Positions 37,319-50,969 of a DNA stretch of 64,000 nt are shown one piece after another (position 1 is the first letter of the stretch; each line of letters starts with the position of its first letter). The position numbers were made by a program, and so were the translations under genes. The notes beneath the pieces are model-generated. The model saw only the letters and a list, made by a program, of their open reading frames with translations, did not search any database and was not told the DNA's origin. The stretch is taken from positions 248,001-312,000 of the forward strand of contig NZ_OY782772.1 of NCBI RefSeq assembly GCF_963678245.1, given 5' to 3'. Source of the stretch: an uncultured Sunxiuqinia sp. (GTDB lineage: Bacteria > Bacteroidota > Bacteroidia > Bacteroidales > Prolixibacteraceae).

Positions 37319-37801
37319 TCAGCCTTCCTGGTATTCGGAAATAATTTGACCTACCTGTTGAGGCGAAACCCGTCCGTATACCTTTTCGCCAACAGTTACC
37401 ACCGGAGCTAATCCACAAGCACCCACACAGCGTAAGCTGCTTAGCGAGAATTTACCGTCGGGTGAAGTTTGGCCAACCTCAATTTTTAACTGACGTTTAA
37501 ATTCAGTCAGTACTTGTTCCGCACCACGCACATAGCAAGCCGTTCCCATGCAAATAGAAATGGGATGTTCGCCCTGAGGCAGCATGGTGAAAAACGAGTA
37601 GAAAGTTACCACGCCGTATACCTTGGCAACCGACATTTTCAATTCTTTGGCAATGACTTCCTGCACTTCGGCAGGTAAGTACCCCAGTTTACTTTGTACC
37701 TGGTGAAGTACATTAATCAGTTCACCTTCCTGATTATTAAATTCAGCGCAGATGTCTTTTATCTGGTTGATCGTTTTATCTGTAAGTTTTATTTTGGGCA
37801 T
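37319..37801 (-). CDS. hydC: HydC/NuoE-like [2Fe-2S] subunit of the hydrogenase
   Basis: The 160-residue protein is a thioredoxin-like [2Fe-2S] subunit of the NuoE/HndA/HydC family. An N-terminal helical bundle contains GYLPAEVQEVIAKEL and VYGVVTFYSFF. The four cluster cysteines are in CMGTACYVRGA and CVGACGLAPVV. In electron-bifurcating hydrogenases HydC passes electrons between HydB and the rest of the complex. The gene is the last of a minus-strand operon, 45 bases after hydA. Length is normal for the family. Confidence 0.92.
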   Translation of the reverse strand: MPKIKLTDKTINQIKDICAEFNNQEGELINVLHQVQSKLGYLPAEVQEVIAKELKMSVAKVYGVVTFYSFFTMLPQGEHPISICMGTACYVRGAEQVLTEFKRQLKIEVGQTSPDGKFSLSSLRCVGACGLAPVVTVGEKVYGRVSPQQVGQIISEYQEG

Positions 37802-37846
37802 TTCTTTTTGTTTTGCAATTAAATTTGTTTTCGGACCGAGACTTTA

Positions 37847-39598
37847 TTAGCTCCTGTCAAAATATTTCGTATGCAGTAAGTGATGTGCTTTTTCACTTAG
37901 TGGCTGACCTAAGAACTCATCATACAGTTTTTTGATGGATGGGTTTCCGTGCGATTTACGAATGCTCTTACTTTTGTCCTCTTCATAAATTGCTTTCTGA
38001 CGTTTTTTCAGAATTTCAACATCTCCATGATGGTAGGGTTGTCCACCACCTCCGATACAGCCTCCGGGGCATGACATGATTTCAATGGCATGAAACTCAC
38101 TTTTGCCGGTTTTTATTTCTTCCAGCAATTTCCGAGCATTTCCAAGTCCGTGGGCAATACCAATATTGATTGGCAATCCTTCAAAATCGATCGTCGCTTT
38201 ACGCAATCCTTCCATGCCACGCAGCTCTTCAAAATCCAGACGTTTCAGCGTTTTTCCGGTTTGAACTTCGTAAGCAGTGCGAACAGCAGCTTCAATAACA
38301 CCACCGGTTGTTCCGAAAATGACACCCGCTCCGGTTGACTCGCCCATTGGATTGTCAAACTCTTCATCTGGTAAGGCTTTAAAGTCGATGTTGGCTAGGT
38401 TGATTAATTGTGCGAGCTCGCGTGTTGTGAGTGCATAATCCACATCAGGGTTACCTTCAACAGCAAATTCTTCACGGCTGCTTTCATACTTTTTAGCCAC
38501 GCAGGGCATGATAGATACCACCACTAAATCCTCTCGTTTCACCTCCATTTTTTCAGCAAAATAAGTTTTGGCTATTGCACCAAACATTTGTTGAGGGGAA
38601 CGGGCTGTTGATGGAATATCTTTCATTCCGGGAAAGTGATGTTCAAAAAATTTCACCCAAGCCGGACAACAAGAGGTTAGTATTGGTAGTTTGACTTCTT
38701 TGTCGCCTGCAAGGTATTTGTTGAGGCGGGCAAGCAGTTCAGTTCCTTCTTCCATAATGGTAAGGTCGGCAGCAAAGTCGGTATCAAATACATGATCGAA
38801 GCCGAGACGACGCAAAGCAGCAGCCATTTTTCCGGTGACCAATGTGCCGGCATCCATGCCAAATTCTTCGCCTAATGCCGCACGCACTGCCGGAGCCGTT
38901 TGTACAATAACAGTCTTTGTAGGATCGGAAAGTGCCCGAATGACAGCTCCGGTTTCATCCACTTCGGTTAATGCAGCGGTTGGGCAAACTGCCACACATT
39001 GTCCGCAGTAAGTGCAGGACGAATGGTCCAGATTCATTTCGAAAGCTGGCGAGACCACAGCCTCAAATCCACGGTTGATAGTAGAAAGCACACCAACCGT
39101 TTGTACTTCGTTACACATGGTTTCGCAGCGTCGGCAAAGAATACATTTGTCAATATCTCGAATGATAGCCGGACTGGTGTCTTCGCGGTAGTGTGATTGC
39201 TCCCCTTGATAATGAATTTCGCGGATTCCAAGATGGTGAGCCATATTTTGCAAATCGCACTTTCCTGATTTTGGACAGATTAGACAGTCGGCCGGATGGT
39301 CTGATAAAATCAGCTCAACAATCGTACGGCGGGCATTAACTGCACGCATAGAGTGCGTGCTGATTTCCATGCCGTCAGCAACGTCGGTGCAGCAAGCCGG
39401 AGCCAAATTACGTCGTCCTTTCACTTCGACAACGCAAACGCGACAACCGCCGGGTTTGTTTTCGATATTCATATCGTGCAAATGCATGTGGCAAAGTGTG
39501 GGTACATCAATACCAATGCTTGATGCAGCTTCTAAAATGGTTGTTCCTTTTTTAACAACCAGGGATTTATTGTCGATGGTTAAATTGATCATTTCCAT
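37847..39598 (-). CDS. hydA: [FeFe]-hydrogenase catalytic subunit HydA (NAD-linked, group A3 type)
   Basis: The 583-residue protein has an N-terminal [2Fe-2S] domain (about 1-80), a His-ligated cluster segment (HPADCLICPKSGKC), two [4Fe-4S] sites (CILCRRCETMC and CTYCGQCVAVC), and the H-cluster domain. All three signatures are canonical: TSCCPAWVKFF, MPCVAKKYE and EIMSCPGGCIGGGGQP. The proton-relay Cys of TSCCP is present, so the enzyme should turn over. The domain order and the adjacent hydB and hydC genes fit the trimeric electron-bifurcating or NAD(H)-dependent class, which makes or consumes H2 with NADH and ferredoxin. Maturases HydEFG are not in this window. Confidence 0.95.
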   Translation of the reverse strand: MEMINLTIDNKSLVVKKGTTILEAASSIGIDVPTLCHMHLHDMNIENKPGGCRVCVVEVKGRRNLAPACCTDVADGMEISTHSMRAVNARRTIVELILSDHPADCLICPKSGKCDLQNMAHHLGIREIHYQGEQSHYREDTSPAIIRDIDKCILCRRCETMCNEVQTVGVLSTINRGFEAVVSPAFEMNLDHSSCTYCGQCVAVCPTAALTEVDETGAVIRALSDPTKTVIVQTAPAVRAALGEEFGMDAGTLVTGKMAAALRRLGFDHVFDTDFAADLTIMEEGTELLARLNKYLAGDKEVKLPILTSCCPAWVKFFEHHFPGMKDIPSTARSPQQMFGAIAKTYFAEKMEVKREDLVVVSIMPCVAKKYESSREEFAVEGNPDVDYALTTRELAQLINLANIDFKALPDEEFDNPMGESTGAGVIFGTTGGVIEAAVRTAYEVQTGKTLKRLDFEELRGMEGLRKATIDFEGLPINIGIAHGLGNARKLLEEIKTGKSEFHAIEIMSCPGGCIGGGGQPYHHGDVEILKKRQKAIYEEDKSKSIRKSHGNPSIKKLYDEFLGQPLSEKAHHLLHTKYFDRS

Positions 39599-39610
39599 AG
39601 TTTTCTTTGG

Positions 39611-41404
39611 TTACGCAATCTTGATTGCATCAAACTTACATTTATCATAGCAGGCTCCACATTTGATGCAAAGCGATTGGTCGATATAGTGCGGATTGCG
39701 CCTCTCTCCTGAAATAGCGCCAACCGGACAATTCCGGAAGCACAGCGTACAGCCGGTACATTTTTCATCGGTAATAACATATTGCAAAAGGGCTTTACAC
39801 TGACCTGCCGGGCATTTGCCGTCATCAACGTGAGCTTCGTATTCGTGCATGAAATGGTCCAGGGTTGAAAGAACCGGGTTTGGAGAGGTTTGCCCCAGTC
39901 CGCACAACGACGAATCTTTAATGACATGACTTAGCATGCGCAGTTTGGTCAAGTCTTCCGGCGTTCCTTTTCCTTCAGTAATTTTCTCCAGAATTTCGTA
40001 TAACCGCTTATTGCCGATGCGGCAAGGTGTACATTTCCCGCAGGATTCATCCAGGGTAAATTCCAGGTAGAACTTGGCAATCGATACCATACAGTCGTCT
40101 TCATCCATCACAATCATACCGCCTGATCCCATCATAGAACCGGCAGCCAGTAAGTTGTCGTAATCAATTGGAGTATCCAGAAAATCTTTGGTTAAACAAC
40201 CACCTGATGGGCCTCCGGTTTGCACTGATTTGAATTCTTTGCCGTTTTTGATGCCGCCACCTATATCATAGATAACTTCGCGAAGGGTGATGCCCATCGG
40301 AACTTCAATCAACCCAACATTGTTGATTTTACCGGCCAGTGCAAAAACTTTGGTTCCTTTTGATTTTTCGGTTCCAATGCTGCTAAACCACTCCGCTCCT
40401 TTATTGATGATGGGAGGGATGTTGGCAAAGGTTTCTACGTTATTCACGTTGGTTGGCTTTCCAAGATATCCTTCTTGCGATGGAAATGGTGGTTTAAAGG
40501 TTGGTTCTCCGCGTTTTCCTTCCATTGAGTTGATCAGGGCTGTTTCTTCTCCACAAACAAACGCTCCTGCTCCGTAGCGAATCTCAATTTCGAAACTGAA
40601 TTCTGATTCCAATATATTTTCACCTAACAGACCATATTCGCGTGCCTGATTCAAAGCTGTTTTTAGTCGTTGAATAGCTAGCGGATATTCAGCCCGAATG
40701 TATACCAATCCTTTATTGGCTCCGATGCAATAACCGCAAATGGCCATTGCTTCGATGACGGTGTGCGGATCACCTTCCAAGATGGAACGATCCATAAATG
40801 CACCGGGGTCGCCTTCGTCGGCATTACAAACCACATATTTTTGTTCGTTTTCAACTTTGCGGGTAATGTCCCATTTCAATCCGGTTGGGAAACCACCGCC
40901 ACCACGTCCACGAAGGCCGGAGTCCATAATCATTTTAATGGCGCTTTCCGGAGTTATTTCTTCCAAACATTTTCCGAGAGCAGAGTAGCCATCATTTCCG
41001 ATGTATTCTTCAATATTTTCGGGATTGATAAAACCGCAATTTCGCAGAGCAATGCGGACTTGCTTTTTATAAAAGTCCATATTTTTGCTCTCTGTAATTT
41101 GTGCTTTAGTGTTTGGATCGGTGTATAACAAGCGATCAACCTGACGCCCTTTTATAATGTGTTCGTTTATGATTTCCATCGTGTCGTCAGGCTTAACCGA
41201 AACATAGAATGTATTGTCTGGTTGAATCTTAACAATAGGGCCTTGCTCACAGAAACCAAAACATCCGGTGTGAATTACCTGAACGTCATTTTCGAGGCCA
41301 ACTTCCTGTAATTGATTTTTAAAATTGTTCTTTATCTGTTCGCTTTGTGAAGCCTTACATCCGGTACCTCCACAAACCAACAGGTGTATTTTGTAGTCAG
41401 TCAT
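39611..41404 (-). CDS. hydB: HydB/NuoF-like flavoprotein subunit of the hydrogenase
   Basis: The 597-residue protein has an N-terminal thioredoxin-like [2Fe-2S] domain (CGGTGCKASQ and HTGCFGFCEQGP). The NuoF core follows, with the NADH/FMN glycine-rich stretch GLRGRGGGGFPTGLKW, then NADEGDPGAFMDRSILEGDP and the [4Fe-4S] site ESCGKCTPCRIG. Two C-terminal [4Fe-4S] ferredoxin motifs (CTGCTLCFRNC and CIKCGACYDKC) complete it. This is the layout of HydB of bifurcating hydrogenases, where the flavin splits electrons between NAD and ferredoxin. It lies 12 bases upstream of hydA and 22 bases downstream of the HndB-like gene. Confidence 0.95.
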   Translation of the reverse strand: MTDYKIHLLVCGGTGCKASQSEQIKNNFKNQLQEVGLENDVQVIHTGCFGFCEQGPIVKIQPDNTFYVSVKPDDTMEIINEHIIKGRQVDRLLYTDPNTKAQITESKNMDFYKKQVRIALRNCGFINPENIEEYIGNDGYSALGKCLEEITPESAIKMIMDSGLRGRGGGGFPTGLKWDITRKVENEQKYVVCNADEGDPGAFMDRSILEGDPHTVIEAMAICGYCIGANKGLVYIRAEYPLAIQRLKTALNQAREYGLLGENILESEFSFEIEIRYGAGAFVCGEETALINSMEGKRGEPTFKPPFPSQEGYLGKPTNVNNVETFANIPPIINKGAEWFSSIGTEKSKGTKVFALAGKINNVGLIEVPMGITLREVIYDIGGGIKNGKEFKSVQTGGPSGGCLTKDFLDTPIDYDNLLAAGSMMGSGGMIVMDEDDCMVSIAKFYLEFTLDESCGKCTPCRIGNKRLYEILEKITEGKGTPEDLTKLRMLSHVIKDSSLCGLGQTSPNPVLSTLDHFMHEYEAHVDDGKCPAGQCKALLQYVITDEKCTGCTLCFRNCPVGAISGERRNPHYIDQSLCIKCGACYDKCKFDAIKIA

Positions 41405-41426
41405 TCTTCGAGTAGTTTATAATGGG

Positions 41427-41816
41427 TCAAAGGGTTTTATAGCTAACCGGTATGATGCCATCTACCAGTTCATTTAATTTAATGTGCTTGTCGATAATTT
41501 CCTGTGCCTTCGTCTTATTTACATCGCCATAAACGACAGGTTGCTTGCCGGGCATGGTAAGCTCAATAGTTGGTTCGGCGTAGCAATATCCCATACATCC
41601 GGTTTGAGTAACCAAGGCATCAATTCCCTGATGGTCGAGTTCTTCGATAAAATAATTCATCGTGTCTTTTGCTCCTGAAGCTATTCCGCAGGTGCCCATC
41701 GAAACTTTTATCTGAATCAGGTTTTCGGGATGATCTCCTTTTTCCCGAAGCTTAATTTTTGACTGGACCTCTTCTTTCAATTTTTTAAGGTCCGCAAGTG
41801 ATTTTACTTTTGTCAT
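41427..41816 (-). CDS. HndB-like thioredoxin-fold [2Fe-2S] ferredoxin
   Basis: The 129-residue protein begins with a charged coiled helix (LADLKKLKEEVQSKIK) and then has MGTCGIASGAKD and QTGCMGYCYAEPT, the cysteine pattern of HndB-type proteins of hydrogenase operons. Three cysteines are at cluster-like positions. The first Cys of standard thioredoxin-like ferredoxins is Ser here (KVSMGTC), as in the HndB subgroup. It is probably a small electron-transfer subunit of the same complex. A 92-base gap separates it from the upstream regulatory genes and may hold an internal promoter for the structural genes, though I see no consensus box. Confidence 0.85.
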   Translation of the reverse strand: MTKVKSLADLKKLKEEVQSKIKLREKGDHPENLIQIKVSMGTCGIASGAKDTMNYFIEELDHQGIDALVTQTGCMGYCYAEPTIELTMPGKQPVVYGDVNKTKAQEIIDKHIKLNELVDGIIPVSYKTL

Positions 41817-41908
41817 GGTATATTGTTTATGGTTTTTTTATCAGTAGGTTATATCTTCTGGGTTACAAATTTCATTCGATTTTCACAATTAGAATCTAAT
41901 TTTCGTCA

Positions 41909-42457
41909 TTATTCGCTTATTTGAATCTGTTCTAAATTACCCAGAATCATTTCTTTCAAAAATAGTTGTATTTCAGGTGTTGAAAGCGGTATCCCATCCA
42001 GCTCCTTTTTTATTTCACGTGTGTCTAATTCAAATGTACCCTTGCTGGTTTGATGTGTGTAAAGAAGGTCAGCTTGGGTTTCATTCGAAATCAAGATCAA
42101 CAGGCATCCTGCAATGTCGCCTATAATAGGCCTGTCGAAATGATGAAACCCAAAACTGACAGTTAATGTTGTTCCGATTTTTTCGGTGGATTGAAGTTGA
42201 AACTGCCCGTTTGTTTGCTCTGCGTTTTGTTTCAATAGTGGAATTCCCAATCCAACTTTTCGGGTTGTTCTTGACGTGAAAAAAGGATTTTCAGCTCGAT
42301 CCGCTTGACATTGTTTCATGCCGTCACCATCGTCTTTTATTTGGATGGACAACAAGTCCTCGTCAGGTAATTCCTTCACGTGAATCTGGATTAACCCGGC
42401 ATTGGCTCTGATGGAGTTTTGTGCAATGTCTAAAATATGGAGCGACAACTCATTCAT
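41909..42457 (-). CDS. GHKL ATPase-domain protein (kinase-like, no phosphoacceptor domain)
   Basis: The 182-residue protein consists of a histidine-kinase-type ATPase domain with N-box DIAQNSIRANAG, G1 box DDGDGM and G2 region GLGIPLLKQNAEQ with EKIGTTLTV. It has no dimerisation/His phosphotransfer domain, no sensor and no membrane segment, so it is not a complete histidine kinase. The last ~60 residues are of unknown kind. It overlaps the PHP gene by four bases and lies between regulatory genes and the hydrogenase subunits. A role as a stand-alone kinase or anti-sigma-like switch is inference. Confidence 0.82.
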   Translation of the reverse strand: MNELSLHILDIAQNSIRANAGLIQIHVKELPDEDLLSIQIKDDGDGMKQCQADRAENPFFTSRTTRKVGLGIPLLKQNAEQTNGQFQLQSTEKIGTTLTVSFGFHHFDRPIIGDIAGCLLILISNETQADLLYTHQTSKGTFELDTREIKKELDGIPLSTPEIQLFLKEMILGNLEQIQISE

Positions 42458-43197
42458 GATTCAATTTTTACAAATCGTCCGTTTTTTTGATTTAAAGCCC
42501 ATCGAAGTTCTTGAAAAGTGGGTTCAAATAGGTGAAAAAAAGTATGCGCAGAACCAACATCTTTAATGTAATGAGCATCAGATGCTGTGATCAAACTTAC
42601 TTCCTTATGAATATCGTATTGTTGTCTGATTTCGTTTTCAGGAGCAAATTTTGAAAGCTGCATGCCATCAACGTTCATATCAGAGGGTAAATAGCCGAAT
42701 TGGCTATATATACTACTGATGGGGCGGTCGATATGGGCCGGAATGAAAATTCCGTTAAGCTGATGCGTGTATTTTTCAATTGTTTCCAGATCAACCTGAA
42801 GTGGACTCAACAAATAGTGTGGCGAATGATGAACGATGTTATTTTGATCGTCCACTATTATCTGATGACCATTGTACTCCGGGTTGTTGGGTATTTCTGG
42901 CAGGTATTGATCCAAAAATTGCTGAAATTGATCGCGGGTATAATCATCTTCGAAGAGGCAAATTGCATGGACCTCTTCCTGGCTGTTCACTTCACATCCA
43001 TTGATTACGATCAGCTTTGTTTTTTCGGCATGCTTTTTTACCATCGCACATTGCCCGGTTGCATTATGATCGGTGATCGCGATAATATCAATCCCTCGGT
43101 CAATCGCTTTTTGCACAATTTTATCAGGGCTCATTTCCAAATCAGCACATGGCGACAAAACGGTGTGAATATGTAGATCGGCCCGATATTTTTTCAT
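42454..43197 (-). CDS. PHP-domain metal-dependent phosphoesterase
   Basis: The 247-residue protein has the PHP signature throughout: ADLHIHTVLSPCADLEMSP at the N-terminus, IAITDHNATGQC, then EVHAICLFE, FIPAHIDRP and ITASDAHYIKD. These motifs supply the His and Asp ligands of the usual three-metal site. PHP enzymes hydrolyse phosphomonoesters or nucleotides such as pAp and 5' ends of RNA; the substrate here is unknown. It overlaps its neighbours by one and four bases, so it is made together with the putative hydrogenase sensor and the ATPase. Close relatives are found in hydrogenase regulatory clusters of Firmicutes. Confidence 0.85.
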   Translation of the reverse strand: MKKYRADLHIHTVLSPCADLEMSPDKIVQKAIDRGIDIIAITDHNATGQCAMVKKHAEKTKLIVINGCEVNSQEEVHAICLFEDDYTRDQFQQFLDQYLPEIPNNPEYNGHQIIVDDQNNIVHHSPHYLLSPLQVDLETIEKYTHQLNGIFIPAHIDRPISSIYSQFGYLPSDMNVDGMQLSKFAPENEIRQQYDIHKEVSLITASDAHYIKDVGSAHTFFHLFEPTFQELRWALNQKNGRFVKIES

Positions 43198-43535
43198 TAT
43201 TGCTCTTTCAACAACGCATAAAGTTTTCCGCTTATATCGAAGGTTGAATCAGAGGTTGACAGAATGGGGATTTGCTCCTCGTTGCTGTGTTCGATTGTAC
43301 TTTTGTGGGGCTGCAGTCCTTTTACCAGGATGACAGCTGCCAAATCTTTTAGCGAAGCAATAGCCATTACATTTTGATGTACCTGTAATGTAATCCAAAG
43401 CTGTTCTTCCTTGGCATTGCCCATTACATCGCTCAATAAGTCGGAAACATACGCTCCACTAATTTCCCGGTCAAGTCCTTTTTCTCCGGAAATTACTTTT
43501 AAATTTAGTTGTTCTATTAAATCAGAAACCTTCAT
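43197..43535 (-). CDS. DRTGG-domain protein
   Basis: From the ATG at 43535 the protein has 112 residues. The frame is open further upstream, but only through the sequence that codes the end of the preceding gene in another frame. The start MKVSDLIEQLNLKV is typical of DRTGG domains, and GAYVSDLLSDVMGNA is a second hallmark. DRTGG domains are ligand-binding modules found with CBS domains and in phosphotransacetylases; their ligand is uncertain. It overlaps the end of the hydrogenase-like gene by 14 bases. A second DRTGG protein starts the same operon, so the two may form a heterodimer. Confidence 0.8.
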   Translation of the reverse strand: MKVSDLIEQLNLKVISGEKGLDREISGAYVSDLLSDVMGNAKEEQLWITLQVHQNVMAIASLKDLAAVILVKGLQPHKSTIEHSNEEQIPILSTSDSTFDISGKLYALLKEQ

Positions 43536-44898
43536 TTCTTTTTCCTCGTTTATTACAATCAGCCTGAAATCTTTTTTCTCCCCACTTCTTTTCCACATTT
43601 CGGAAAGCCTTTGTAGTGCTAATTTTTCCTTCGTCTTCCCACATTTGTTGTAGAAATACGCAATCAGACATTTTTGCTTTTCCGTTTACCATGTCTTCGG
43701 CTAGTGCCTGGCAGTTGGGAGCACCACATGCACCGCAATCAACACCAGGTAAAAAGCAGATTATCCGCTGGGCACGGTTCATTTTTTCCAGTGCCCGAAC
43801 ACGATCTTTATCCAGGCTAAATGCTGGTTTGGGGATAATTTTATCAGCGATTAGTTTTTGTATTATCTCTTTCGAACCTTTTATTGCTTCACTGTCTTTC
43901 AACTTCCAGGCTTGTGGGTAACGTTTTGCACGGCGCTCAAGTCTGGTCACAGTTAAAAAACGATTGCCCGTCATCAGAATTCCTCCGGCACAACTTTGGT
44001 CGCAAGCACGAAGTTCCAAAAAGTCAATCTCCGGTACCTCTTCGTTTTCCAAGCGTTCCAAAAATTTAATGACATTGTGAATGCCATCGATGGCCATGCT
44101 ACGTTCTCCAAAGTGAATCGATTCGCCTCGGGTCAGGCTCCACAGAATTCCGTCGCGACTTAAATTTTCGCGCAAATGACTTGTGTCTTCTGCTTCCTTG
44201 TCATTGATAACTTGCATCACTCGGTTGTATAAATCATTCATGTTGATGATGCCATCAGCAATCGACTCTTTTTCACCAACCGGACTTTTCACCGAACTAA
44301 TTTTAGCATTGCAAGGGGTGATGTAAAACAGCCCAATTTCATCTTCTTTAGCACCTTGTTTCTTTAATTCCTTAATGGCAAAGTGTGCTCCCAAATCGTG
44401 CGGTGATTTGCGCTGAATCAGGTTTTCGGTTAACGATGGGTAGCGAATCTGTATCAGACGCACAATTGCCGGGCAAAAGCTAGATATGTGTGGTTTATTG
44501 TTGGGTGAAGTTTTGCAGTATTGCTTCATCGAGTCCTTCAAAATGCCGATTGGCTGTTCCACTTCAAAAGCGTGGGTAAAGCCAATTTTTAGCAGGGCTG
44601 CGTAAATCTGATTTTCGGTATATTTTTCAGGAAACTGGCCAATCATAACTGCCGGGAATAAAGCCACCCTGTATTTAAATGTTTTGGAAATTTTTAAGTC
44701 ATCCTGCTCCACATAGATAGCTTTGGCCGGGCAGGCACGCATACAGTGCCCACAGTCAACGCATCGTTCTTTCGATATTTCAGCTAATCCATCAACTACT
44801 CGAATAGCTTCGGTCGGACAAGCTTTCATGCAATGGATACATCCTATGCATTTCTTTTCGTCGACCGTTAATGCGTGATATGTTTTTGCAGTTACCAT
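43522..44898 (-). CDS. [FeFe]-hydrogenase-like iron-sulfur protein, putative H2/redox sensor (HydS-like)
   Basis: The 458-residue protein has two N-terminal [4Fe-4S] motifs (Cys17/20/23/27 and Cys46/49/52/56), then an H-cluster-type domain (about residues 75-370). A C-terminal Fe-S domain (VDCGACGAPNCQALAEDM) completes it. The H-cluster ligands remain but in divergent settings: SSFCPAIV for L1, ITPCNAK for L2 and LRACDQSCAGG for L3. The first Cys of TSCCP, the proton relay, is Phe here, as expected of low-turnover sensory hydrogenases. No PAS domain is fused; one is encoded divergently nearby. It overlaps the RsbW-like gene by one base. A sensory role is inference from sequence divergence and from neighbours. 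Confidence 0.85.
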   Translation of the reverse strand: MVTAKTYHALTVDEKKCIGCIHCMKACPTEAIRVVDGLAEISKERCVDCGHCMRACPAKAIYVEQDDLKISKTFKYRVALFPAVMIGQFPEKYTENQIYAALLKIGFTHAFEVEQPIGILKDSMKQYCKTSPNNKPHISSFCPAIVRLIQIRYPSLTENLIQRKSPHDLGAHFAIKELKKQGAKEDEIGLFYITPCNAKISSVKSPVGEKESIADGIINMNDLYNRVMQVINDKEAEDTSHLRENLSRDGILWSLTRGESIHFGERSMAIDGIHNVIKFLERLENEEVPEIDFLELRACDQSCAGGILMTGNRFLTVTRLERRAKRYPQAWKLKDSEAIKGSKEIIQKLIADKIIPKPAFSLDKDRVRALEKMNRAQRIICFLPGVDCGACGAPNCQALAEDMVNGKAKMSDCVFLQQMWEDEGKISTTKAFRNVEKKWGEKRFQADCNKRGKRNEGF

Positions 44899-45314
44899 TA
44901 AAAATGATTGACCATTTTAACTGTTGTTCCCTCATTTACGGTTGATTCAATCGTGAGCTTATCCGTATTCTTTTTGATGTTGGGAAGTCCCATTCCAGCG
45001 CCAAATCCCATTTCTCTTACTTTTTTACTAGCCGTGGAGTAACCTTCCTGCATCGCCAAATCTACATCGGCTATTCCCGGTCCTTTATCGGAGATTACCG
45101 TCGTAATCTTGTCTGATTCAATATGGACATGAATAAGGCCTTCAAAAGCATGTGCTACGACATTCACTTCTGCCTCGTACATGGCAATTACGATGTTTTT
45201 GATGCAACGTGAATCGACCCCCAATTGCTTGAGCATTTTTTTGATTTCACTCGACGCATGACCGGCTCGCGAAAAATTTCCTCCTTCTATGTGAAACTCC
45301 AGATTCATATTCAA
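44898..45314 (-). CDS. RsbW/SpoIIAB-like anti-sigma regulatory ATPase
   Basis: The 138-residue protein is a single GHKL ATPase domain of the anti-sigma type: N-box NIVIAMYEAEVNVVAHAF, G1 box DKGPGI, G2 region GFGAGMGLPNIKK and the final EGTTVKM. Such kinases bind a sigma factor or phosphorylate a STAS antagonist. Neither target is encoded next to it; a SpoIIE phosphatase is encoded divergently. It overlaps the upstream DRTGG gene by four bases and the hydrogenase-like gene by one, so all three are translationally coupled. Confidence 0.88.
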   Translation of the reverse strand: MNMNLEFHIEGGNFSRAGHASSEIKKMLKQLGVDSRCIKNIVIAMYEAEVNVVAHAFEGLIHVHIESDKITTVISDKGPGIADVDLAMQEGYSTASKKVREMGFGAGMGLPNIKKNTDKLTIESTVNEGTTVKMVNHF

Positions 45315-45655
45315 TAAACTGGTTTTAGTCCTGCCTGATACAACAGACCACTGGCTTTAAATAGCGTGAATGGAGATTCCAAAATGCACATATTATTTTC
45401 TTTAGCAAGCGCAAGCATCTCATCATTTAATTTTTTTTTGCGCACAAACACAATGAATTTAATGTCTGCCATCTCAGATGTGCGAATCGTTTGTAAATTA
45501 CACAATCCGGTAATTAAGAGCAGATTGTCGGTGTCCAGTGTCAGGACATCACTCATTAAATCAGAGCTGTATCCTCGCTCTATCGTTGCTGATGAATATT
45601 TTGTTCCACAGATGATTGTGGCAGATAAAAGTTCGCAGATTTGACTGACTTGCAT
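45311..45655 (-). CDS. DRTGG-domain protein, first gene of the hydrogenase operon
   Basis: From ATG 45655 the protein has 114 residues starting MQVSQICELLSA, the usual DRTGG beginning. An upstream ATG at 45727 in the same frame would add 24 residues of unlike composition. A promoter-like pair at 45675-45708 would start transcription near 45667, which favours the shorter form; another -7 box at 45736 would allow the longer one. GYSSDLMSDVLTL and IKFIVFVRKKK are family features. It resembles the DRTGG protein four genes later. Role: probably ligand sensing within the hydrogenase control circuit. Confidence 0.75.
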   Translation of the reverse strand: MQVSQICELLSATIICGTKYSSATIERGYSSDLMSDVLTLDTDNLLLITGLCNLQTIRTSEMADIKFIVFVRKKKLNDEMLALAKENNMCILESPFTLFKASGLLYQAGLKPVY

Positions 45656-45674
45656 GTTCTTGTAAAGATTTTTG

Positions 45675-45708
45675 CAAAGATCACCGAAAAGTTCGAAATG
45701 GAACAAAA
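45675..45708 (-). promoter_or_regulatory. Probable promoter of the hydrogenase operon
   Basis: On the minus strand TTTTG (45704-45708) stands 21 bases before GATCTTTG (45675-45682), near-consensus -33 and -7 elements. A second, perfect -7 box, TAAATTTG, lies at 45736-45743 without a clear -33. The two suggest alternative starts for the ten-gene operon. Confidence 0.5.
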
Positions 45709-45911
45709 TTTCGTCTACATAATGCATATAGAACTCAAATTTAGATTGATTTGAAATAAGCCTTTTCAGTTTTTAATTTTTAATTTAGCGGTAGTGGGAG
45801 GACGGTGCCGTGTTCAGGCACAGTGGACAGGTAGAAGTAACAGTGATTGGTAAGTGAAAACCAAAATTAAGTCGCTAGTTGTAATGACAACTGTCTCGTA
45901 GACAACCTACA

Positions 45912-46883
45912 ATGATCAATGAAGAATTAGCTAATTATCCAATACCAACGACAATGATATATGATGACCAGTCTTTCCATTCGGATATGATCCAGTATCC
46001 GGATTTGCATCAGAAAATTATTGATGCTTTGCCGATCCCGATTTTCTATCGCGATATCAACGGAATATATAAAGCCACCAACAAAGCGCATGAGAATTTT
46101 ATAGGCTTAAAAAAGGAGGAGATCATTGGCAAAACAGTGTTTGATGTTCAGCCGACAGATATTGCTGAAATGTATGCCCGACGTGATCAAGAGTTATTTG
46201 AAACACCGGTTGATCAGAGCTACGAAACTAAGTTTCGTTTATCGGACGGATCAATGCATGATGTGATTTTCAACAAAGCTGTGATTCGAAATGATGAGAA
46301 TGAAATTATCGGCATCGTCGGTTCGATCCTTGATATAACTGATCGGAAAAAGGCAGAACGAAATCTGGAACAAGCCCAGGAAGCATCTGTTATCGCATCT
46401 GCAATGATGCACAAAATCAGAGCTGGGGTTATTATTGTGAATCAAGATTTTAAGGTCATTGATTCAAACCAGGGATTCGCACGCCTGTTTGGAGAAGAGT
46501 TGGAAGAATTGTATGAAACAATACCCGGATTACAAGGAGCTGAGCTTAGTTCATTAATCCCCGATGTGGTGTTTAAAATGTTCGCTTCATTGATGGTTTC
46601 AGGGGAAAACATGTTGGAGCGCGATCTGAAAATACAAAACCGGTTGTTGCATGTTTCGGTGATTTCGATATACAAAAATAGGGTTGTCGGGGCATTGATC
46701 CGCGATATGTCAGCTCCTTTGTTAGTCAGAGAGGAAATCATTAGCCGGGCACAACGCGTGAACAAGCAAAATCTGGATACGGTGCAAAAGATTGCTTTTT
46801 TGTTGGGTGAAAATGCGGCTCAAACGGAGGAATTACTCAACTCCATTATTCAATCGTATAAATATGGGGAGGACGACAACTGA
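45912..46883 (+). CDS. Cytoplasmic PAS-domain sensor protein
   Basis: The 323-residue protein has no membrane segment and two PAS domains. The first covers about residues 35-150 (ALPIPIFYRDINGIYKATN, FRLSDGSMHDVIF, GSILDITDRKKAE). A linker helix leads to the second at about 165-270 (IRAGVIIVNQDFKVIDSNQG, LLHVSVISIYKNRVVGAL). No kinase or cyclase domain follows; the last ~50 residues are helical and probably pass the signal on. The stop codon overlaps the start of the SpoIIE phosphatase by one base, so the two are partners. It is divergent from the hydrogenase operon across a 184-base region. Confidence 0.88.
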   Translation: MINEELANYPIPTTMIYDDQSFHSDMIQYPDLHQKIIDALPIPIFYRDINGIYKATNKAHENFIGLKKEEIIGKTVFDVQPTDIAEMYARRDQELFETPVDQSYETKFRLSDGSMHDVIFNKAVIRNDENEIIGIVGSILDITDRKKAERNLEQAQEASVIASAMMHKIRAGVIIVNQDFKVIDSNQGFARLFGEELEELYETIPGLQGAELSSLIPDVVFKMFASLMVSGENMLERDLKIQNRLLHVSVISIYKNRVVGALIRDMSAPLLVREEIISRAQRVNKQNLDTVQKIAFLLGENAAQTEELLNSIIQSYKYGEDDN

Positions 46884-48064
46884 TGGCTGATTATCATTTT
46901 GATGTCGATATTCAACAGAAGTTGCCTAAAGGCGAGGTGGTTTGTGGTGATGTGTTTTACACCCGTCGAATTAAGGAAGAAGGTCGCGTAATCATGGTGT
47001 TGTCTGATGGAATTGGGCACGGTGTAAAGGCTAATGTCTTAGCTACATTAACAGCCTCTATGGCTTTAAACTATTCTTCATTACATACGGAGCCAGATGT
47101 GGCTGCGAAGGTATTTATGCGTGCTCTACCTCGCAGTAGCGATGGAAAAGAGAGTTACGCCACATTCACGATTATTGAAATTGAAGTAGATGGATTGGTT
47201 CGGATCGTGAATTATGATAATCCGCCAACTTTAATTTTCCGTAAAGGCGAATACTTTTTGCCTAAAGAAATCGAAGTAAATATCAGGGGAGAGGAGAATG
47301 TTGGCAAAATTTTGCGTATTCGTGAGTTTACACCTCGAAAAGGCGATCGCATTATTTTTATGACCGATGGTGTTGTTCAAAGTGGCTTGGGGGGCAAAAA
47401 ATATCCGATGGGCTGGGGAATAGAGCAGGTGCATGAGTTTGCAAAAAAGCAGATTTCGCGCGAAAATAAAATTTCGGCTACTCGTCTGGCACGGAAAATT
47501 TTAAACCAGGCAGCCATGAATGACGGATTTAATTTGAAAGATGATACCAGTTGCGGTATTGTCCATTTTCGAAAACCCCGAGAGTTTATGCTGATAACGG
47601 GACCTCCGTTCTATAAGATTAAAGATGTTGATTTTGTGAAACGAGTGACAGAGTTCCCGGGCAAGAAGATTATATGTGGTGGTACAACTGCTGAGATTAT
47701 TGCCCGCGAATTAGATTTGGAAGTCAATATCCAGCATCGGTATGCTGGAGAGTCGATTCCTCCGGCTGCCGAAATGGAAGGTTTTGAAATGGTGACGGAG
47801 GGCGTGTTGACGATGGGAAAAGTGGAGGAAGTTCTTGAAAACTACACCCGCGAAACCCGATTGGGAAACAGTCCGCCCGAAGAAGTGGTGAAATTGTTGT
47901 TGGAACACGATATTATTCACATTATTGTAGGCACTCGAATTAACTGGACTCATCAGGATCCGGAGCAGCCGATTGAGCTCGAGATACGCAAGTTTGTTGT
48001 AAAACGAGTCGTTCGTTTGTTGGAAGAGCGATTTTTGAAAGACGTAACATTGGAGTTGGTCTAA
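46883..48064 (+). CDS. SpoIIE-type PP2C phosphatase with extra C-terminal domain
   Basis: Residues 1 to about 230 form a SpoIIE/PP2C phosphatase domain with GEVVCGDVFY, VLSDGIGHG, IIFMTDGVVQ and DDTSCGIVHF, which provide the metal-binding Asp residues. About 160 further residues follow, including ITGPPFYKIKDVD, KKIICGGTTAEIIAREL and a helical end; this part is not in standard SpoIIE and I do not recognise it. SpoIIE enzymes dephosphorylate STAS-type antagonists in partner-switching systems. Together with the PAS protein, the RsbW-like ATPase and the hydrogenase-like putative sensor, it suggests a switch that reads H2 or redox state. Confidence 0.88.
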   Translation: MADYHFDVDIQQKLPKGEVVCGDVFYTRRIKEEGRVIMVLSDGIGHGVKANVLATLTASMALNYSSLHTEPDVAAKVFMRALPRSSDGKESYATFTIIEIEVDGLVRIVNYDNPPTLIFRKGEYFLPKEIEVNIRGEENVGKILRIREFTPRKGDRIIFMTDGVVQSGLGGKKYPMGWGIEQVHEFAKKQISRENKISATRLARKILNQAAMNDGFNLKDDTSCGIVHFRKPREFMLITGPPFYKIKDVDFVKRVTEFPGKKIICGGTTAEIIARELDLEVNIQHRYAGESIPPAAEMEGFEMVTEGVLTMGKVEEVLENYTRETRLGNSPPEEVVKLLLEHDIIHIIVGTRINWTHQDPEQPIELEIRKFVVKRVVRLLEERFLKDVTLELV

Positions 48065-48124: not shown

Positions 48125-48580
48125 ATGAATAAGGAAATAAAAGCGTTGTTATTAGCAGAACTCTCCAAATTGTTGGACGAACGAATTAACGCAACATTAT
48201 CAGAAATAGAATCAGCAAAAGAGTCACGCGATAGCGATACCAAAAGCAGTGCCGGCGATAAATATGAAACGGGGCGGGAAATGATTCAACAGGAGTTGAA
48301 TAAATTTCAGGCTGAGTTGAGCAAGTTTCAAACTTTGAAAAATGATTTGGCACGAATTAATCCTTCGAAAATACATACACATGTAGAATTTGGTAGCCTG
48401 GTAATTTGTAATCAAGGGAACTATTTTCTATCGGTTGCTCTGGGAAAGGTTCATGTGCAGTCGACGGATTACTTTTGTTTGTCGATGGTTTCTCCGATCG
48501 GTCAGGCGCTATCTGGAGGAAAAGTTGGCGAGCAGGTTTTGTTTAACGGGAAGACGATTTTGATTGAAGCCATTTATTAG
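48125..48580 (+). CDS. GreA/GreB-family-like protein
   Basis: The 151-residue protein has an N-terminal coiled-coil-like hairpin (about residues 1-75, rich in Glu and Lys) and a small beta domain with FCLSMVSPIGQALSGGKVGEQVLFNG. The latter matches the FKBP-like C-terminal domain of Gre factors (SPIGxALxGKxVGD). Gre factors reach into the RNA polymerase secondary channel to rescue stalled complexes. This protein lacks the full length of standard GreA by a few residues and may be a Bacteroidota-specific relative. It lies 60 bases after the SpoIIE gene and converges on rlmF with nine bases between stops. Confidence 0.75.
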   Translation: MNKEIKALLLAELSKLLDERINATLSEIESAKESRDSDTKSSAGDKYETGREMIQQELNKFQAELSKFQTLKNDLARINPSKIHTHVEFGSLVICNQGNYFLSVALGKVHVQSTDYFCLSMVSPIGQALSGGKVGEQVLFNGKTILIEAIY

Positions 48581-49655: not shown

Positions 49656-50969
49656 ATGTCAAAATCGATTAAAAATCAAAAAAACATACTGGATAAGCTG
49701 AATATTGAGCAATTGAACCCAATGCAGGAAGAGGCTCAGCAGACAATCCACTCCAATGCTGAAGTCGTTTTACTGTCGCCCACCGGAACCGGAAAAACAT
49801 TGGCCTTTTTGTTGCCCCTTGTTGCAGAATTGAAACGGGACTGCGATGAAATTCAGACCTTAATTTTGGCGCCATCGCGCGAGTTGGCTATTCAAATAGA
49901 ACAGGTGCTTCGCGAAATGGGCGCTGGCTATAAAACCAATGCTGTTTACGGAGGCACCTCATTTTCAAAAGATAAACTGGAGTTAAAGCATCGTCCGGCT
50001 GTATTGGTTGGTACGCCGGGTCGGGTGGCCGATCATTTGCGGCGCGAAACTTTTTCTACCGACAGTATTAAAACATTGGTGCTCGATGAGTTTGATAAAT
50101 CGTTGGAAATTGGTTTTGAAGATGAAATGCGTGAGATTTTGCGAATGCTCCCGATGTTGGAAAAGAAGATTCTAACTTCGGCAACTCAAAAAGTGGATAT
50201 CCCTGCTTTTGTGGGATTGAAAGATCCGGTCAATTTAAATTATTTGGGAGAAAAGAGCTCTCAGCTCAAAATCAAAAAAATACTTTCACCTGATAAAGAC
50301 AAACTGGAGGTGCTGTTTAAAGCGTTGTGTCATATTGGAAATCAGCCGGGAATTATTTTCTGCAACTTTAAATATACGATTCAGCGAATGAGCGATTTCC
50401 TAAATGAAAAGAAAATCAGACATGGGTGTTTTTATGGGGGAATGGAGCAGATGGATCGCGAACGATCCCTTATTCAATTTAGAAACGGCACACATCAATT
50501 GTTGATTGCTACCGATCTGGCTGCCCGTGGAATTGATGTTCCTGAGATTAAATTTATTCTGCATTATCAACTGCCAAGGCGGAAAGATGAATTTACCCAT
50601 AGAAATGGTCGAACAGCGCGAATGTTTAACGATGGAACGGCCTATATTCTGCACTGGGAACAAGAAGAACTACCAGACTATTTGGGGGCGGTTGGCATCG
50701 AAAGACTAAGGGAAGCACCTCTTTTAAATAAGTCTGCATGGACAACTTTATTTATTTCCGGAGGCCGAAAAGATAAAATATCAAAAGGAGATATTGCCGG
50801 CTTATTTTTTAAACAAGGAAATCTGAACAAAGAACAATTAGGAATTATTGAGCTTAAACAGGATTGTGCGTTTGTTGGCGTGCATGTGAGCCAGTCGAAA
50901 CAATTGGTTGAATTGCTGGACGGCTGTAGGTTGAAAAATAAGAAGATCAGGATTTCAATCGTTTCCTGA
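49656..50969 (+). CDS. DEAD-box RNA helicase, DbpA-like
   Basis: The 437-residue protein has the helicase motifs in order: the Q-motif region (LNPMQEEAQ), Walker A SPTGTGKT, PSRELAIQ, GTPGRV, motif II as DEFD rather than DEAD, then TSAT, and in the second half IIFCNFKYT, ATDLAARGIDVP and HRNGRTAR. The last ~70 residues form a small DbpA-type RNA-binding domain (IAGLFFKQGNLNKEQLG and FVGVHVSQSK). DbpA relatives help assemble the large ribosomal subunit, which fits the divergent rlmF next to it. DEFD is a tolerated variant of motif II. Confidence 0.92.
   Translation: MSKSIKNQKNILDKLNIEQLNPMQEEAQQTIHSNAEVVLLSPTGTGKTLAFLLPLVAELKRDCDEIQTLILAPSRELAIQIEQVLREMGAGYKTNAVYGGTSFSKDKLELKHRPAVLVGTPGRVADHLRRETFSTDSIKTLVLDEFDKSLEIGFEDEMREILRMLPMLEKKILTSATQKVDIPAFVGLKDPVNLNYLGEKSSQLKIKKILSPDKDKLEVLFKALCHIGNQPGIIFCNFKYTIQRMSDFLNEKKIRHGCFYGGMEQMDRERSLIQFRNGTHQLLIATDLAARGIDVPEIKFILHYQLPRRKDEFTHRNGRTARMFNDGTAYILHWEQEELPDYLGAVGIERLREAPLLNKSAWTTLFISGGRKDKISKGDIAGLFFKQGNLNKEQLGIIELKQDCAFVGVHVSQSKQLVELLDGCRLKNKKIRISIVS

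Follow-up and report, generated by a model that had tools for sequence, protein, structure and literature searches.

Sensory [FeFe]-hydrogenases of groups C and D are already known to lie near hydrogenase operons. In the accessible part of the paper on TamHydS, the group D (M2e) protein of Thermoanaerobacter mathranii (PMC8163306), group D/M2e proteins are marked by two N-terminal [4Fe-4S] motifs with an H-domain, a C-terminal Cx2Cx4Cx16C motif, the absence of a PAS domain, the loss of C299 and the replacement of M353 by Ser or Thr, and the signal output of such a PAS-less sensory hydrogenase is stated there as an open question. Here we describe a locus of a marine bacterium, an uncultured Sunxiuqinia sp. 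(Bacteroidota), in which a protein resembling group D is encoded in one run of genes with an [FeFe]-hydrogenase operon, next to a divergent pair of genes for a PAS protein and a SpoIIE-type phosphatase. The window is the whole stretch of 64,000 nucleotides that was analysed (G000:C6:248001-312000, where G000 is the window's own genome of 4.87 Mb). The genes and one upstream element are, in window positions:

37319-37801, minus strand: HydC, NuoE-like 2Fe-2S thioredoxin-like subunit (2Fe-2S_thioredx, PF01257, 173.7 bits)
37847-39598, minus strand: HydA, catalytic [FeFe] subunit (NCBIfam FeFe_hydrog_A6, 908 bits, cut-off 765; L1-L3 motifs)
39611-41404, minus strand: HydB, FMN/NADH diaphorase with an N-terminal 2Fe-2S and two C-terminal 4Fe-4S sites (PF01512 (Nuo51/FMN), PF10589 (NADH_4Fe-4S), two Fer4, PF01257)
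41427-41816, minus strand: HndB/HydD-like small thioredoxin-fold ferredoxin-like protein (PF01257 19.8 bits, below the cut-off of 24.8; conserved place beside HydB)
41909-42457, minus strand: GHKL ATPase (PF02518, 47.5 bits; no match to a phosphoacceptor domain)
42454-43197, minus strand: PHP phosphoesterase (PF02811, 45.9 bits)
43197-43535, minus strand: DRTGG1 (PF07085, 31.5 bits, cut-off 25.2; alignment A2)
43522-44898, minus strand: group D (M2e)-like [FeFe]-hydrogenase, putative sensor, here the Fe-S protein (two Fer4, Fe_hyd_lg_C 85.7 bits, PF04060)
44898-45314, minus strand: RsbW/SpoIIAB-like GHKL kinase with a TTG start (PF13581 (HATPase_c_2) 48.8 bits; spIIAB 64.5 bits, below the cut-off of 135)
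45311-45655, minus strand: DRTGG2 (PF07085 in 23 of 24 aligned members, with no Pfam match in the window's own sequence; alignment profile; predicted fold)
45737-45760, minus strand: conserved upstream block (TTATTTCAAATCAATCTAAATTT-like), candidate operator (recognized by eye in L138-L146, nine of the 40 stretches listed)
45912-46883, plus strand: PAS-PAS protein (PF08448 above cut-off, PF13188; C-terminal half similar to the group C PAS domain plus tail)
46883-48064, plus strand: SpoIIE-type phosphatase, HfsC-like (PF07228, 61.4 bits; tree)

We propose that the group A6 HydABC operon of this locus carries its own sensor-regulator cassette of six genes, in which the Fe-S protein would provide the input, the RsbW-like kinase and the DRTGG proteins would form a relay and the PAS-SpoIIE pair would add a second layer, and we give this reading a probability of about 0.55. 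All twelve genes are open over their full coordinates, ten on the minus strand (37319-45655) and two on the plus strand (45912-48064), and our domain scans agree with the domains and overlaps given for them in a preliminary description made from the DNA alone. The GHKL, PHP, HATPase_c_2, PAS and SpoIIE domains all score above their cut-offs. Its pair of DRTGG proteins stood in different ways, as DRTGG1 is recognized by Pfam and DRTGG2 fails its own Pfam scan and is recognized through its aligned members and its fold. Along the minus strand, HydC and HydA are separated by 45 base pairs (bp), HydA and HydB by 12, HydB and HndB by 22 and HndB and the GHKL ATPase gene by 92, and from there the order GHKL-PHP-DRTGG1-FeS-RsbW-DRTGG2 proceeds through overlaps of 4, 1, 14, 1 and 4 bp in turn with the starts proposed here. 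The starts of DRTGG1 (43535) and DRTGG2 (45655) are probably those indicated by homologues and not those of the longest open reading frames. HydA scores above the curated A6 cut-off with HydB and HydC both there, as in group A6 NADH-dependent HydABC. By these signatures the window enzyme is a NAD-linked, bifurcating-type group A6 HydABC, with bifurcation as a predicted property.

We found that the six-gene cassette recurs in relatives and does so beside HydABC. A scan of genome_contigs with the Fe-S protein matched at least 593 stretches, of which 567 were confirmed, and the best 80 of these 567, all Bacteroidales or Bacteroidota by title, were kept for the locus counts given here. Among them the order DRTGG2-RsbW-FeS-DRTGG1-PHP-GHKL is conserved, with DRTGG2 and the RsbW-like gene each preceding the Fe-S gene in 79 of 80 loci, and with DRTGG1 (67 loci), PHP (67), GHKL (62) and HndB (57) downstream of it, many contigs ending early. 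HydABC, counted when HydA at 58% or more or HydB at 60% or more lay downstream on the same strand, was found within the 10-kb flank in 55 of the 66 decidable loci, the other 14 of the 80 being too short to decide. Since the same arrangement occurs in most of the relatives examined, a chance neighbourhood is excluded. For ten of the eleven loci lacking an adjoining HydABC the genome was searched, and nine of these have HydA of at least 64% elsewhere, in one case as a fragment. The tie of regulatory genes to HydABC that the preliminary description had put forward is therefore borne out by the neighbourhood search it had suggested, and the contrary case, regulatory genes occurring together in most genomes with no hydrogenase, is ruled out for this sample by the 55 loci and the nine exceptions.

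The same association is visible at the level of whole genomes. Of 61 genomes including the window's own, 35 contain both the cassette and an A6-like HydA (at least 65% identity), five HydA alone (G011, G016, G034, G043 and G044), two the cassette alone (G003 and G037) and 19 neither, in a table that treats related genomes as independent; the better count, by genus, is 25, 3, 1 and 18 for 47 genera. The cassette count includes G017 and G036 despite their very diverged Fe-S protein; without these two the genome table reads 33, 7, 2 and 19. Eight genomes have only a HydA of a second, approximately 50% type, and the cassette occurs in one of these, G003, a 71% complete draft in which HydB is cut at a contig end. 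A record of Sunxiuqinia elliptica (L056) carries the cassette as well. Taken together, gene order and co-occurrence indicate that the cassette is a conserved unit tied to HydABC, and its linkage to hydrogenase is well supported. Two separate observations concern genomes that lack the cassette. HydB is shorter in G016 (L178, a match of approximately 485 amino acids) and G011 (L179, 489 amino acids), against 597, and its N-terminal part seems to be missing there, while G034 has a full-length HydB (597 amino acids) and a remnant of PHP.

We next consider how widely the cassette is distributed. It is rare across the phylum: in a sample of 395 Bacteroidota genomes, at least approximately 410 residues of the Fe-S protein were aligned at 31% identity or more in five rows among the matches listed (G000, G407, G232, G397 and G240). 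A Subdoligranulum (Clostridia) record, taken from a plasmid collection, holds the same ten gene families arranged as two divergent operons, so that the gene set crosses phyla and extends beyond Bacteroidota.

Published hallmarks of group D are present in the Fe-S protein, in agreement with the hydrogenase-like putative sensor of the preliminary description. It contains two N-terminal [4Fe-4S] motifs followed by an H-domain, with the cysteines conserved in alignments A1 and A4, and its C-terminal Cx2Cx4Cx16C motif is exact (C388x2C391x4C396x16C413) and covered by PF04060; no PAS domain was matched in the domain scan. In an alignment of 81 rows comprising the window and Bacteroidales, the four H-cluster cysteines (C142, C196, C299 and C303), Lys K199 of the L2 motif, and the [2Fe]-pocket Lys and Pro are each kept in at least 98% of rows, and F141 at the position of the proton-path Cys and T194 at the position of M353 are each present in 90-98%. 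The tested features, namely the N-terminal clusters, the C-terminal motif with no PAS domain, the retained H-cluster cysteines and the lost proton-path Cys, are all those of group D (M2e). An AlphaFold model (mean predicted local distance difference test score, pLDDT, of 86) has [FeFe]-hydrogenases as its top structure matches over approximately 420-455 columns, with a template modelling score of approximately 0.6 and 17-20% identity. A quick tree of 65 H-domain rows, made without bootstrap and with three HydA-HdrA fusions left out, has the Fe-S family as one clade of 23 rows (SH-aLRT, an approximate likelihood ratio test, 97) that is sister to 12 PAS-bearing group C rows (90), with long branches and no named group D reference included. 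These data suggest that the Fe-S protein is a group D (M2e)-like putative sensory [FeFe]-hydrogenase, with a predicted H-cluster and predicted H2 turnover; we use the label group D-like because the comparison set included no named group D sequence.

The divergent pair is related to a different class of sensor. We found that residues approximately 145-320 of the PAS protein match the C-terminal PAS domain and tail of group C sensory hydrogenases (approximately 615-645 amino acids) at 42-49% in nine of ten loci examined; in the tenth, the match is 31% over a longer stretch. The window SpoIIE protein matches the SpoIIE linked to group C over nearly its full length at 45-52%, so that, against the Bacteroidales copies, the PAS tail and the paired SpoIIE of group C are both present here. 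The domain scan of the window PAS protein gave PAS matches only, with no H-domain or Fe-S domain, and in this it departs from group C. In a quick SpoIIE tree the 41 rows of the stand-alone type group together (support 100), and their clade emerges among 14 rows linked to group C; the tree has 56 rows, 47 of them distinct as some genomes occur twice, leaves out stretches shorter than 330 amino acids or with a stop, and was made without bootstrap and with one outgroup, long branches and an unsure root. Both SpoIIE types occur in G018 and G023. Our data indicate, through homology of the PAS tail and of SpoIIE, that the pair corresponds to the output half of the group C module, and it therefore resembles a group C signalling module whose hydrogenase domain has been replaced by a PAS domain. 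This SpoIIE type (at least 54% identity) shares a locus with HydB/HndB in all 28 genomes that have it. Among the group C proteins themselves, one Bacteroidales sensory hydrogenase (L189:9227-11158) has lost its H-cluster cysteines, and other Bacteroidales rows have CxxC instead of CxxxC in L3; both keep the PAS domain and the C-terminal Fe-S motif.

We hypothesized that the Fe-S protein senses either H2 or the redox state of those electron carriers that HydABC serves, and that its signal would pass via the RsbW-like kinase and the DRTGG proteins to the expression or activity of HydABC. The RsbW-like kinase, DRTGG1 and DRTGG2, the GHKL ATPase and the PHP phosphoesterase are likely parts of such a relay, and their active residues are conserved. 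Kept in at least 98% of rows are E47, N51, D76, G78, G80, G103 and G105 of the RsbW-like kinase (80 rows), D10, N14, D42, G44, G46, G69 and G71 of the GHKL ATPase (63 rows), H9, H11, H44, E69, H77, H155, D207 and H209 of PHP (68 rows) and D23, D42, D162, D220 and D221 of SpoIIE (14 rows), in alignments that exclude fragments beyond the length limits set and from which X letters were deleted. The RsbW-like protein thus retains its catalytic GHKL residues and is predicted to be a kinase, scoring below the curated NCBIfam cut-offs for both SpoIIAB and RsbW. The PAS-SpoIIE pair might form a second, separable layer that feeds the same target by dephosphorylation. The support comes from linkage, homology and residue conservation; the signal, the phosphoacceptor and the target are what we infer.

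The phosphorylated partner could be DRTGG1, DRTGG2 or a STAS protein encoded at a distance. Beyond the Pfam matches of its aligned members, DRTGG2 is matched to DRTGG1 by alignment profiles (A2/A3, E 5.1e-21), and its model (pLDDT 95.4) has the DRTGG structures 2ioj and 3l2b as first structure matches; a PDB sequence search with DRTGG2 returned one chance-level match, and a search with its profile two weak CBS-PPase matches. Ser35 and Thr49, numbered from the proposed starts, are invariant in both DRTGG alignments (23 and 24 rows). The gene order spoIIAA-spoIIAB is that of antagonist and kinase, and since DRTGG2 precedes the RsbW-like gene in the same way and both DRTGG proteins have the invariant Ser and Thr, the DRTGG proteins are candidates, no more, for the role of STAS.

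Several findings weigh against the proposed sensor-regulator cassette or against parts of it. The cassette stands away from HydABC in 11 of the 66 decidable loci; no hydrogenase adjoins the six genes in Parabacteroides distasonis or shares the 15-kb contig (L172) on which they lie in G407. Three genomes (G011, G016 and G034) have PAS-SpoIIE and HydABC with the cassette absent, and three others (G002, G012 and G032) have the cassette and HydABC without that SpoIIE; because each is found without the other, kinase and phosphatase are not obligate partners. Scanning the genes of the locus and its neighbours (49656-50969 left out) revealed no STAS or sigma gene, and the genome's four STAS matches all lie outside the locus, one of them a stand-alone protein with a DSSGL motif (C10:61184). 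The genome also encodes a second, stronger RsbW-like protein (C3:22421, 84.7 bits) and a second SpoIIE protein (C1:954791, 152.8 bits), so that the distant STAS protein may serve those, and classical partner switching in trans is possible.

A possible explanation, less probable than the sensor-regulator cassette and overlapping with it, is that the cassette controls the assembly or activity of the Hyd complex through insertion, protection or on/off switching, with PHP, GHKL and DRTGG acting on the enzyme and having no transcriptional role. PHP and GHKL are the cassette genes closest to the structural genes, in the Subdoligranulum record GHKL lies inside the run HydC-GHKL-HndB-HydB-HydA, and the domain scans found no DNA-binding domain in the cassette proteins. 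In the part of their paper available, the authors of the NiFe-HydABCSL study assume that HydD, HydP and HisK act in maturation and/or regulation (PMC8880783). However, signalling is suggested by the combination of an RsbW-like kinase, a protein resembling sensory hydrogenases and a SpoIIE phosphatase. In addition, an A6-like HydA occurs with no cassette in five genomes, and in several Bacteroidales the cassette is located apart from HydABC.

We regard it as similarly tentative that the Fe-S protein is a redox sensor lacking the [2Fe] part, which would read the ferredoxin/NADH state through its [4Fe-4S] clusters and would not bind H2. The comparison that bears on this is provided by three distant Bacteroidota genomes (G232, G397 and G240; 98-99% complete), whose Fe-S proteins have 31-37% identity to that of the window. 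In these the cassette runs into HydC, HndB, HydB, a HydA with C-terminal HdrA, a VhuD-like protein and [NiFe] subunits. The small-subunit gene is present in all three and the large subunit was seen in G232 and G240, as in G397 it would fall beyond the fetched stretch; in G240 the VhuD and NiFe genes were identified by likeness to those of G232, and DRTGG1 is the query that best matches the first cassette gene. The three genomes gave no match to HydG at E<=0.001, which, with the neighbouring HdrA-fused HydA and [NiFe] operon, favours a redox sensor, as does the very diverged Fe-S protein of G017 and G036, which has lost the [2Fe]-pocket Lys and Pro with its cysteines kept. On the other hand, the NiFe-linked proteins keep the cysteines and, like at least 98% of the 81 aligned rows, the pocket Lys and Pro, and HydG is present in the window's genome (520 bits) and also in G017 and G036. 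In three genomes (G037, G455 and G461) the cassette core is accompanied by HydG, while HydA gave no match at the limits used; HydG might be retained there for a matured H-cluster of the Fe-S protein or to serve another hydrogenase. The maturation argument draws on HydG alone among HydE, HydF and HydG, and since G011 and G034 have an [FeFe] HydA with no HydG above cut-off, the absence of HydG from a draft is no proof. The NiFe-linked copies with no HydG match can be used in a comparison that asks which of the two, H2 or redox state, is the signal.

A wider combination of these ideas, which we consider rather doubtful, is that some lineages at least use the Fe-S protein as a redox sensor devoid of the H2-binding [2Fe] centre, that it signals through the paired DRTGG proteins as RsbW partners or phosphoacceptors replacing STAS, and that the same relay would serve [FeFe] and [NiFe] bifurcating hydrogenases. 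Least likely is one closed circuit, as in the preliminary description, in which RsbW would phosphorylate an antagonist, SpoIIE would reverse this and a freed sigma factor would transcribe hydABC: kinase and phosphatase of the right families lie in one locus, DRTGG2 and RsbW resemble spoIIAA-spoIIAB in order, and a stand-alone STAS protein is encoded elsewhere in the genome, but the scanned locus has no STAS or sigma gene (no genome-wide search for a sigma factor was made), a SpoIIE match is present in no more than 24 loci of the set of 80, a set that includes loci too short to show it, and the single circuit is weakened by several relatives in which kinase and phosphatase occur apart.

Upstream of the cassette, the AT-rich block at 45737-45760, recognized by eye, is conserved in nine relatives at a distance of approximately 85-105 bp from the start proposed for DRTGG2 and is a candidate operator or promoter part; a scan for sigma-70-type promoters gave no excess (28 matches against 23.9 +/- 4.7 expected). 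Directly after the SpoIIE gene on the same strand, positions 48125-48580 of the window encode a small GreA/GreB-like protein (below cut-off). Outside the window, the genome has a second HydA of the approximately 50% type (G000:C1:66311-67828, L002), whose frame is broken, with pieces in different frames and an internal stop, and a HydG lies near it (G000:C1:62221-63567). In the single-contig assembly of G032 (G032:C1; L163, L192), HydA of both types occurs twice, near both ends and with the same identities, perhaps through an assembly overlap or a duplication. HydG scores above its cut-off in G040 (486 bits), where no HydA match was found at E<=1e-60, and may be used there by another hydrogenase type.

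Partner switching by SpoIIAA/SpoIIAB/SpoIIE and RsbV/W/U employs the same kinase and phosphatase families as this locus, which differs in that no STAS or sigma gene was found in it and in that its modules are separable. Our searches of the open-licence PMC literature yielded no account of the six-gene cassette as a unit, of its NiFe link or of the exchange of a hydrogenase domain for a PAS domain, and within it RsbW together with [FeFe]-hydrogenase was found in the TamHydS paper alone; the accessible parts of PMC4374699, PMC6436200 and PMC6288185 hold nothing on these regulatory genes. The NiFe-HydABCSL enzyme of Acetomicrobium mobile, as far as described in the available part of PMC8880783, shares with the window a HydABC module with accessory genes (HydD, HydP and HisK) and resembles the operons of G232, G397 and G240 in enzyme type, whereas the window enzyme is [FeFe] and no DRTGG, RsbW or group D gene is named for A. 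mobile in that part; we guess that HydP corresponds to the PHP protein and HisK to the GHKL protein. Group C HydS/HfsB-PAS with SpoIIE, described for Ruminococcus albus (PMC6776011, record L209) and for the hfs operon (PMC11837493) in the parts accessible, shares with the window a PAS domain with a conserved tail (in the Bacteroidales copies) and an HfsC-like SpoIIE near the hydrogenase operon. The window PAS protein, however, has a second PAS domain in place of the Fe-S and H-domains, and it had no match in the R. albus record at E<=0.01, where the window SpoIIE was matched at 29%.

A further known system is that of TamHydS. According to the accessible part of PMC8163306, it shares with the Fe-S protein the two N-terminal 4Fe-4S motifs, the H-domain, the Cx2Cx4Cx16C motif, the lack of PAS, the lost proton-path Cys and the change of M353 to Ser/Thr, and its gene lies upstream of a bifurcating HydABC and adjoins a histidine-kinase-like ATPase. 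The position of M497 is Leu there and Arg, Lys or His in the aligned Bacteroidota members (the very diverged rows of G017 and G036 deviate), a difference drawn with no reference group D sequence in the alignment. An AraC regulator is named in that part of the paper and none occurs here, and the DRTGG pair and PHP go unmentioned in it. Set beside these systems, the gene neighbours of a group D-like sensor are now defined as one conserved cassette, with a PAS-phosphatase pair beside it in some genomes, and this cassette travels with [FeFe] HydABC and in a few genomes lies beside another hydrogenase type, which turns the input of the sensor into a testable question.

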